Source of the DNA: a virus | DNA length: 64,000 bases | Strand: one strand, 5' to 3' | IMG/VR virus record: IMGVR_UViG_3300047481_000568 | Location: 1-64,000 of that record | Shown: positions 4,666 to 32,336 of the stretch, piece by piece | Layout: every line of letters starts with the position of its first letter | Numbering within the stretch: position 1 is the stretch's first letter | The notes under the pieces: generated by a model | Told to the model about the DNA's origin: nothing | The model's input: the letters and a program-made list of their open reading frames with translations, nothing else | Database searches by the model: none | Program-made: the position numbers and the translations under genes

Positions 4666-4916
4666 GCTGTTTCCTCCACTAGTTCGTAAGACACGATAAC
4701 AAAGTCTTCAACAAAATCTTGGCTGTAAAGTTGTTCTAACTCGTTTATGTCTTTGCAATAAAAGAACACACCTTCGTCAATGCGACGCTCTTCTTCTGTA
4801 AAGTTGTCTTCATCTACCCACTCAGCAAACTTGATGAAGGCATTGAATGCTTTATCAAGTGATTCATCAGCGTAGTAAACGCAACAGTTTGCACCAATGT
4901 ATTTGGTCTCGTTCAT
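4662..4916 (-). CDS. hypothetical acidic protein, 84 aa
   Basis: Not recognised. MNETKYIGANCCVYYADE followed by acidic aromatic segments. The double Cys and the acidity are its only marked traits. Its stop overlaps the 4342-4665 start region. Confidence 0.65.
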   Translation of the reverse strand: MNETKYIGANCCVYYADESLDKAFNAFIKFAEWVDEDNFTEEERRIDEGVFFYCKDINELEQLYSQDFVEDFVIVSYELVEETA

Positions 4917-24849: not shown

Positions 24850-25275
24850 TTATTTTTTCCAGTTGTCTGTTATGTATTGCTTTAATTTATTCCAGTTCTC
24901 AGCTGTCACGGTAGTTGGTGGTGTATCTCCAATTATCGTGTTAACTGCTAACACTATCAAGTCTACCTGCTTGCGTGTATAAATCCTCCTCCCTTTTGCC
25001 TCTACCCCAGGAAGTTGTCCCCCGTCTGGAGGTGCTGTTCGGTATATGGGTTTTGGGATAATTCCTTTCTTCTCCCAAGTTCTAACAGTTATCGTTTTCT
25101 TTCCTAAAACTTTAGCTAATTGTCCAATTGTAAACACTTCAGTGCGTTCTCCCTTAATTACGTAGTAAGAAGATTTAACGCCAAAAAACGGGTCGTCAAT
25201 CTTCTTTGGCTTACGCTTTGTCCTGTTCTTTGGAGGGCGCTTTCCTGGGTAATCCTCTACACCTTTAAAGCCCAC
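24850..25275 (-). CDS. MerR-type helix-turn-helix protein, 141 aa
   Basis: Residues 47-80 (FTIGQLAKVLGKKTITVRTW, KKGIIPKP) match the MerR/excisionase winged helix: a short N-terminal strand, HTH, then a wing with RIYTRKQVDLIV. The N-terminus is Lys/Arg-rich. It probably regulates the replication genes or binds near the origin. The plus strand just downstream has a short TG repeat (24833-24844). Confidence 0.72.
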   Translation of the reverse strand: MGFKGVEDYPGKRPPKNRTKRKPKKIDDPFFGVKSSYYVIKGERTEVFTIGQLAKVLGKKTITVRTWEKKGIIPKPIYRTAPPDGGQLPGVEAKGRRIYTRKQVDLIVLAVNTIIGDTPPTTVTAENWNKLKQYITDNWKK

Positions 25276-30837: not shown

Positions 30838-30998
30838 TATCCATCCAACTTTTTGGCTTTATCAACGATGTACATGACCTTAATCATTTTTCCGTTTTCT
30901 ACTGGAGTCAAAGACAGTTTAGGCACCAGAACTTCTTTTCCTTTATCGTTTATTTCTTTCTCGCTGTACTCCCACATCCATCGCATGCCTTTACCCAT
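30837..30998 (-). CDS. small hypothetical protein, 53 aa
   Basis: Found by translating the gap: MGKGMRWMWEYSEKEINDKG continuing to KMIKVMYIVDKAKKLDG. The stop overlaps the next ATG as TAATG, and the ATG lies a few bases above the stop of the initiator gene. Basic, Lys-rich and probably soluble. Coupled location suggests a replication accessory protein. Confidence 0.6.
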   Translation of the reverse strand: MGKGMRWMWEYSEKEINDKGKEVLVPKLSLTPVENGKMIKVMYIVDKAKKLDG

Positions 30999-31566
30999 TG
31001 CTGTGTCTCCCGTCGGTAAGTTTTAACTGTCGGTTCCACCGACTGTCCGTTGAGTATAGATCCAAGCTCTTAGTACCTTTTCTCTTCTTTTGGTTTTCCT
31101 TCTTATAATTATTTTTCTTTCTTATTTGGGTGTCACTGGAGTCACTCAATATGAGTGTCTCTGGAGTCACCCCAGGGGTGTCACTGGAGTCACTACTAAA
31201 CACCCCAGTGTCTCTAGAGTCACCCCCATTAATTAAGGCTTCTGCGGCTGCCGTATTGTACGTAATTACGTACAAATTTGGCATGTTCTTTCCGTATCTG
31301 CCCATCTTTACAATCTTGCGGATAACCCCAATCTCAACCAAACGATGCATTGCCCTAATTACAGTCCTACGGTTGTATCCGGTGTCCCTTGCTAGAACGT
31401 CATATGTCGTAGACAAAGTTTGGTCATGTGTGTTCATGTAACCAATGGCACATGTCAATACATGTAACGCCACTGAATCGCCTTTCATGTACTTAACAAC
31501 CCAAGTAGGTATGGAAATCCAAGGTCCTCCTAGTTTGGTATTCTCGCCTGCACTTTTTTGTTTCAT
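30991..31566 (-). CDS. putative replication initiator with winged helix and internal iterons, 191 aa
   Basis: Residues 30-105 form a winged helix (VALHVLTCAIGYM, YDVLARDTGYNRRTVIRAM, GVIRKIVKMGRYGKN) like lambda O-type or DnaD/RepN-type initiators. Residues 115-148 are Ser/Asp/Thr-rich and are encoded by four copies of a 16-base iteron; the following Lys/Asn-rich segment is encoded by an AT-rich tract. This is the classic arrangement in which an initiator gene contains its own origin. The downstream genes are a small protein, a partner protein, a DnaC-like loader, the helicase and the primase. Confidence 0.75.
   Translation of the reverse strand: MKQKSAGENTKLGGPWISIPTWVVKYMKGDSVALHVLTCAIGYMNTHDQTLSTTYDVLARDTGYNRRTVIRAMHRLVEIGVIRKIVKMGRYGKNMPNLYVITYNTAAAEALINGGDSRDTGVFSSDSSDTPGVTPETLILSDSSDTQIRKKNNYKKENQKKRKGTKSLDLYSTDSRWNRQLKLTDGRHSNG
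31130..31223. repeat. four iterons: probable replication origin
   Basis: Plus-strand copies GTGTCACTGGAGTCAC (31130-31145), GTGTCTCTGGAGTCAC (31155-31170), GTGTCACTGGAGTCAC (31178-31193) and GTGTCTCTAGAGTCAC (31208-31223) start 25, 23 and 30 bases apart and lie inside the putative initiator gene. A strand-asymmetric AT-rich tract (about 31078-31128) adjoins them, as expected for the DNA unwinding element. The design matches lambda ori within gene O. Each unit holds an imperfect dyad (GTGTCTC...GAGTCAC). Confidence 0.72.
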
Positions 31567-31606
31567 ATAGTTGCATCCTCTCTAGTGATCGTGTTATGCT
31601 TTTGGT

Positions 31607-31706
31607 AAGTAAACGGTTCCCTTCTCCCGTTTACTATTGCGAGTTATTTAGTAACTGCGCAAGGCCCACTTGATAGTGGGGGCGTTGGTTTCCCTTCTTA
31701 CCAACG
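31607..31706 (-). ncRNA. hairpin array in a 143-base intergenic leader
   Basis: On the minus strand (RNA sense) hairpin B (CGUUGGU/ACCAACG, 31683-31706) and hairpin A (AGUAAACGG/CCGUUUACU, 31608-31635) have unrelated stems but nearly identical ten-base loops, AAGAAGGGAA and GAGAAGGGAA. Between them lie CCCACU/AGUGGG with an AUCA loop (31665-31680) and AGUUA/UAACU (31642-31656). The region lies between 31710-32336 and the initiator gene start. It is not terminator-like because no U-tract follows. A protein- or RNA-binding leader is likely. Confidence 0.6.
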
Positions 31707-31709
31707 TCC

Positions 31710-32336
31710 TCACTGTGGGTTTAAAAACTCCAATATTTTGCTCTTAGAACCGCTAACTGTCTTATGTTGCCCATCTATGGTGTAAACAAGCGTATACAGC
31801 TCATTAGAGAGGTTAGAAACCAAATCCTGTGTAGGGGGAAGGGTATCCTTTTTTGACGCATCCTGGGGCTTCCTAGAGGCCTCTACGGGCTTATCTTCTA
31901 CTGGTTCCCCAACTGTTAAAGGCACTAAACCATTACACAGGTCTAGAGTCTCCATATTCTTTGCATTGGCTGTAAGAACAATCTCCTCTACAAACTGTGT
32001 AGGTTGGTCAAAAGTAGCGACTTCATCCCATAACACAAGTACTGTGGCGTCAGGGTAGCTGTCCAGACTATCCTCAATAAGATTGTCTACTTTTACAACT
32101 CGGTTCGCAGCACCCTCAACCAGGTGATGAACTTTGTTATCAGAGTGGACCACTGTAAATGACGCTGAATGTTCTATGAGCCAATCGTAAACACGACTCT
32201 GACCATCTGTGGGTTTGCCTGTCCAAAGAACCACAAACTCTTTTGTGGTCAATGCCACGTCACTTAAACCAGTTTCAATTACATTTGCGCTTGCGTTACC
32301 TGTACCTGCTATCAGGTAGTACCTAGACTTTTGCAT
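31710..32336 (-). CDS. hypothetical alpha/beta protein, 208 aa
   Basis: Residues 5-130 show alternating strands and helices (YLIAGTGNASANVIETGL, EFVVLWTGKPTDGQSRVYDWL, ATVLVLWDEVATFDQ) of a Rossmann-like or toprim-like fold; a polar linker (about 148-170) leads to a small C-terminal beta domain. No nucleotide-binding signature is complete. Not recognised. It lies between the tail genes and the hairpin leader. Confidence 0.64.
   Translation of the reverse strand: MQKSRYYLIAGTGNASANVIETGLSDVALTTKEFVVLWTGKPTDGQSRVYDWLIEHSASFTVVHSDNKVHHLVEGAANRVVKVDNLIEDSLDSYPDATVLVLWDEVATFDQPTQFVEEIVLTANAKNMETLDLCNGLVPLTVGEPVEDKPVEASRKPQDASKKDTLPPTQDLVSNLSNELYTLVYTIDGQHKTVSGSKSKILEFLNPQ

Follow-up and report, generated by a model that had tools for sequence, protein, structure and literature searches.

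A predicted small RNA gene with Shine-Dalgarno-complementary loops beside the replication initiator gene in a group of uncultured phages

Plasmid copy-control antisense RNAs of the CopA/RNAI type are counter-transcribed hairpin RNAs at the leader of a replication initiator. In phage lambda, the promoter pO lies at the start of O, where it opposes pR and makes the OOP RNA (PMC3985674). This promoter adjusts how much transcription arrives at the origin within O, and promoter interference, not the RNA, has been proposed to tune replication, OOP itself acting on cII and not on the O mRNA (PMC3985674). In actinobacteria, the 6C/B11 RNA has C-rich loops on two hairpins, through which it pairs with ribosome-binding sites (PMC10470900).

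Here we analyse a hairpin locus in a 64-kb phage record from IMG/VR (the window, meaning the whole stretch of DNA studied), and find that it very probably holds a real and conserved small RNA gene, assignable to one strand and placed like that of OOP, its transcription being predicted from sequence. The layout resembles that of lambda pO/OOP in that a promoter lies directly upstream of an O-type initiator and a short RNA would be directed away from it, convergent with the preceding gene and reaching the end of that gene, as judged here from a predicted RNA end (PMC3985674). A further likeness lies in the iterons within the initiator gene (here at 31128-31224, with a predicted origin role). The differences are that we found no sequence relation to OOP, that the neighbour is not cII, that the overlap with the preceding gene is only ~13 nt, and that the RNA has three hairpins with pyrimidine loops and in some clades is predicted to pair with the initiator ribosome-binding site (RBS). 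As in 6C/B11, two hairpin loops are predicted to pair with RBSs, and the host phylum is probably the same. Unlike 6C, whose two loops contain runs of roughly six C, the RNA has loops in which C and U are mixed, with at most 3 consecutive C in the window and 5 in L117/L169, and it is phage-borne beside an initiator; a search of Rfam gave no match and nothing else relevant to the element. Compared with CopA/RNAI, this too would be a counter-transcribed hairpin RNA at the leader of an initiator gene, but it does not overlap the initiator RBS, and its loops are similar across distant phages rather than diversified.

The phage and the genes flanking the hairpins

The window phage has contractile-tail genes and a terminase that is ~46% identical to those of the Streptomyces phages LuckySocke, BRock and others. 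Because of this similarity and the WhiB genes, one in the window and a homologue in 13 of 20 related contigs, the host is probably an actinobacterium. The tail and replication genes of LuckySocke follow the same order, but a different hairpin occupies its intergenic gap 101/102.

In the window, the gap that holds the hairpins (31567-31709), earlier described as the longest gene-free stretch but one, is equalled in length by several other gaps between ORFs of at least 70 aa, which short genes may occupy. On one side it adjoins the gene for a 191-aa lambda O-like replication initiator (30991-31566, minus strand; PHROGs 270, 391 and 8540, with a weak Pfam HTH_36 match), which confirms the original prediction that the gap precedes a probable initiator, and this is the gene that is likely to be regulated. 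Within it lie four 19-bp direct repeats of the GGGTGTCACTGGAGTCACT type (31128-31224), 74-100% identical to the reference copy, which are the likely origin; related initiators contain similar repeated peptides (VTGDT-like). On the other side is a conserved 208-aa gene (31710-32336, minus strand), convergent with the predicted small RNA, whose homologues occur in dozens of IMG/VR contigs. The protein family starts with YLIxGTGNAsaNVIE; searches gave no match in Pfam, PHROGs or isolate phages and no relatives among prokaryote genome contigs.

Fold, strand and promoter of the predicted RNA

Read on the minus strand, one hairpin has the arms CGUUGGU/ACCAACG around the loop AAGAAGGGAA, while the other, that of 31608-31635, has the arms AGUAAACGG and CCGUUUACU around the loop GAGAAGGGAA. 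The pair is thus present where it had been reported, with unrelated stems and loops identical at nine of ten bases. On the plus strand the region folds into three hairpins: SL1 (31608-31635; nine pairs, loop UUCCCUUCUC at 31617-31626), SL2 (31638-31661; ten pairs) and a long hairpin, SL3 (31662-31722; 23 pairs in two helices, loop UUCCCUUCUU at 31690-31699). Two smaller hairpins had been thought to lie between the pair; SL2 is a true middle hairpin, and the second, the CCCAC/GUGGG pairing, in the plus-strand fold forms part of the large hairpin's base. The fold energy was -47.3 kcal/mol (z = -4.1) for the minus strand and -59.0 kcal/mol (z = -6.1) for the plus strand, with 0 of 200 dinucleotide shuffles as good in either case.

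We assign the RNA to the plus strand because of the asymmetry of wobble pairs, the better folding of this strand and a conserved promoter, which together contradict the minus-strand RNA of the original prediction. Isolated non-Watson-Crick positions in otherwise perfect stems were G·U 43 times on the plus strand and 8 times on the gene strand, giving p = 7e-7 when distinct sites are counted, a value that is approximate as these sites are related by descent and are taken as independent. The plus strand folded better in 19 of 26 representatives. All 53 of 53 homologous sequences carry an extended -10 motif, TGnTAnnnT, which reads into the hairpins on the plus strand and sits between them and the Shine-Dalgarno (SD) sequence of the initiator gene. 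Where the initiator start could be placed, the motif lies 21-40 nt from it; at four distant loci, L221, L222, L232 and L241, the motif was located from the side of the 208-aa gene. The five positions of the motif are invariant and the neighbouring positions variable, and a TTG recurs ~17-18 nt upstream of it in most representatives; since the sequences were aligned on the motif itself, what counts as evidence is that every sequence has it at the same place. In the same stretch of the gene strand, the motif was found in 0 of 26 representatives. A generic consensus promoter scanner made no call at the plus-strand site, where the hexamers fall below its threshold.

In the window, the predicted -35 (TTGCAT, 31571-31576) and the predicted extended -10 (TGT-TATGCT, 31592-31600, with TATGCT at 31595-31600) are separated by an 18-nt spacer. 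The predicted RNA (31607-31722, plus strand, ~115 nt) would start ~7 nt past the -10 and end at the base of SL3, and with this end the 3' arm of SL3 would overlap the 208-aa gene, from its final codons through the stop, by ~13 nt. On the sequence evidence, the strand, promoter and fold of the RNA are well supported.

A leader or other RNA on the gene strand, with SD-like purine loops binding ribosomes or a protein, was the model first put forward for this locus. It would account for the SD-like character of the loops on that strand, which in L088 and L137 extends to a full complement of the 16S tail, and for the gene strand also folding better than shuffles. Set against the wobble asymmetry, the lack of a recognised gene-strand promoter and the plus-strand promoter present in all sequences, it appears very unlikely, and neither a gene-strand leader nor an SD mimic that captures ribosomes is the explanation that fits best. 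Protein binding by the loops is possible, and nothing specific was found in its support.

Other candidates for the gene strand were rejected. For a CsrA-binding (Rsm-type) RNA or sponge, GGA is absent from the loops of L067 (AAGGGCAA) and L015 (AAGGGUA), and the strand is wrong too. Pairing of the purine loop with a downstream UCCUUCU hairpin, seen in L021, is impossible in L019, and antitermination sites (put, boxA), STAB-SD-type mRNA stabilisers and ribosome standby sites fell with the gene strand.

We regard as highly improbable a DNA-level or termination element, that is, a hairpin ending the operon of the 208-aa gene without any regulatory RNA. A long G+C-rich stem does abut the stop codon of this gene in most clades, but the G·U asymmetry points to selection as RNA, the loop is conserved, and the iterons, rejected as an explanation of the hairpins, lie elsewhere, inside the initiator gene. 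Moreover, the long hairpin in the window has no U-tract (its 3' side on the plus strand is UUUAAAAACUCC) and no intrinsic terminator was called there, in agreement with the original prediction; in L169 and L171 the long hairpin is followed by UUUCGUUUU.

Conservation in related phages

Queries made from the initiator and the 208-aa neighbour, as single sequences and as profiles, brought in the IMG/VR relatives, which were sorted into 14 groups. In ~14 groups of related contigs, equivalent hairpins lie upstream of the initiator gene, and between groups their stems are rewritten through compensatory changes. In most groups the hairpin starts at or just past the 208-aa gene's stop codon. In the L128-L146 group and in L157-L171 this neighbour gives way to another gene, one that diverges from the initiator. 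The pyrimidine loop core (purine on the gene strand) is kept in nine of the 14 groups, and in L157, L167, L221, L222 and L232 the promoter and hairpins are kept but the SD-complementary loop is not.

Among ten sequences of the window's clade, 95.0% of cells were paired, compared with 91.8% in shuffles, and 10 pairs had changed on both sides, compared with 3.0 in shuffles (0 of 500 as high), so that the compensatory stem changes foreseen in relatives were indeed observed. Sliding the pairing partners lowered the paired cells to 37-51%. In these ten members SL1 had 96.6% of cells paired and 2 pairs changed on both sides, SL2 had 96.0% paired, and SL3 had 7 pairs with changes on both sides. Across 17 clade representatives, whose SL3 arms were put in register by hand from folds, eight inner SL3 pairs are retained with 3-6 pair types each and 2 unpaired cells in total; a MAFFT alignment of SL3 across clades put the stems out of register and was left out. 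The earlier proposal of a conserved, structured regulatory RNA with loops under selection is supported as a prediction.

Conservation also bears on the idea that transcription alone matters, with the promoter opposing read-through into the initiator and origin and the RNA a side product that ends in a terminating hairpin. Lambda pO, for which interference is proposed (PMC3985674), shares this layout, and the promoter is kept even where the loop is not. A by-product, however, would not need loops and stems conserved as RNA, and we judge this reading quite unlikely.

In L128, L137, L157 and L162 the divergent gene shares its strand with the RNA and begins a short way past the hairpins; here the RNA could be the leader of that gene, which in L128 and L137 has no clear SD. 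The L010 contig contains, from ~4620 to its end at 4683, a perfect fold-back at the hairpin, most likely an artefact that the structure provoked during assembly. Pattern matches in L040 and L042 proved to be unrelated coding sequence. The element had no match among 50,697 isolate-phage records, and no account of the RNA was found in the open-access literature searched.

Loop complementarity and candidate targets

With the transcript on the plus strand, the loops become anti-SD-like pyrimidine loops rather than SD-like purine loops, so that the relation to RBSs seen in the original prediction holds but its sense is reversed. The pyrimidine loops of SL1 and SL3 are complementary to SD sequences, and SL3 loops are closer to the 16S rRNA 3' end than are shuffled loops (0 of 1000) or permuted tails (18 of 3000). 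The match reaches 9-11 bases in L088 and the L128/L137/L144 group, and is only partial in the remaining clades, the window's included.

These observations would be expected of a trans-acting RNA whose loops mimic the 16S 3' end and, in the manner of 6C/B11, bind the SDs in a number of phage or host mRNAs instead of acting mainly on the initiator, as would the presence of a same-sequence loop twice in one RNA, a feature of B11 (PMC10470900). In the window, the GTG-start gene at 24850-25275 has an RBS, GGAGAAGG, that is complementary to the SL1 loop region over 8 bases, and GAGAAGGAAAC is retained at this gene start in six relatives, making this conserved RBS a candidate alternative or second target in the window's clade. 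Since the window loops pair unremarkably with start regions in general (median -4.1 kcal/mol, versus -3.7 at random positions) and most clades match the 16S tail only in part, we consider such an RNA unlikely. Rather unlikely, too, is a widespread phage RNA that shows copies of the 16S 3' end in its loops and blocks host and phage SDs broadly, with linkers tuned to its own initiator.

Pairing with the initiator RBS was assessed across 17 clades. The whole RNA was predicted to pair with its own initiator RBS at a mean of -16.35 kcal/mol, compared with -13.54 kcal/mol for those of other clades, an advantage matched in 0 of 20,000 permutations that take related sequences as independent. Because the RBS lies outside the RNA gene, this complementarity is not an automatic consequence of antisense overlap. 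Most of the signal comes from L088, with 13 consecutive pairs between RNA and initiator RBS, L157/L162, where the RNA pairs with the SD region and start codon, L128/L137/L144, where CUCCUCAGG pairs with CCUGAGGAG at the RBS, L067 and L106; pairing is individually strong in L067, L088, L157 and L162. In a comparison with shuffled RNAs, the lowest attainable p, 0.0025, was obtained for 4 of 22 sequences, and for several more p fell around 0.03-0.10. For the window's own clade, pairing with the initiator RBS does not exceed chance, and within genomes other gene starts often outscore the initiator as partner of the RNA. Initiator-RBS pairing is therefore supported by sequence for some clades and unproven for the window.

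The reading that we prefer is of an RNA that works mainly by limiting initiator expression, through antisense or convergent action and, in some clades, RBS pairing; we put this at about an even chance. Host RNA polymerase would probably transcribe the ~115-nt RNA on the plus strand from the promoter between the hairpins and the initiator RBS, proceeding away from the initiator into the end of the 208-aa gene. The RNA would fold into three hairpins, two of them exposing the SD-complementary pyrimidine loops. As the gap contains no recognised promoter for the gene strand, transcription of the initiator probably continues from the 208-aa gene, giving a message that would carry the full complement of the RNA. 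This message would be reduced by convergent transcription and by antisense pairing in which the loops make the first contact, and in several clades RNA loops or linkers may additionally pair with the SD and start region of the initiator.

If this is true, the RNA would constitute a family not described before, in a large group of uncultured freshwater phages whose hosts are probably actinobacteria, and the lambda pO/OOP layout would have recurred with no detectable sequence relation at the RNA. It would also offer a case in nature of the anti-Shine-Dalgarno sequence being copied in RNA loops, and a simple, testable model for how such phages may restrain the initiation of replication.
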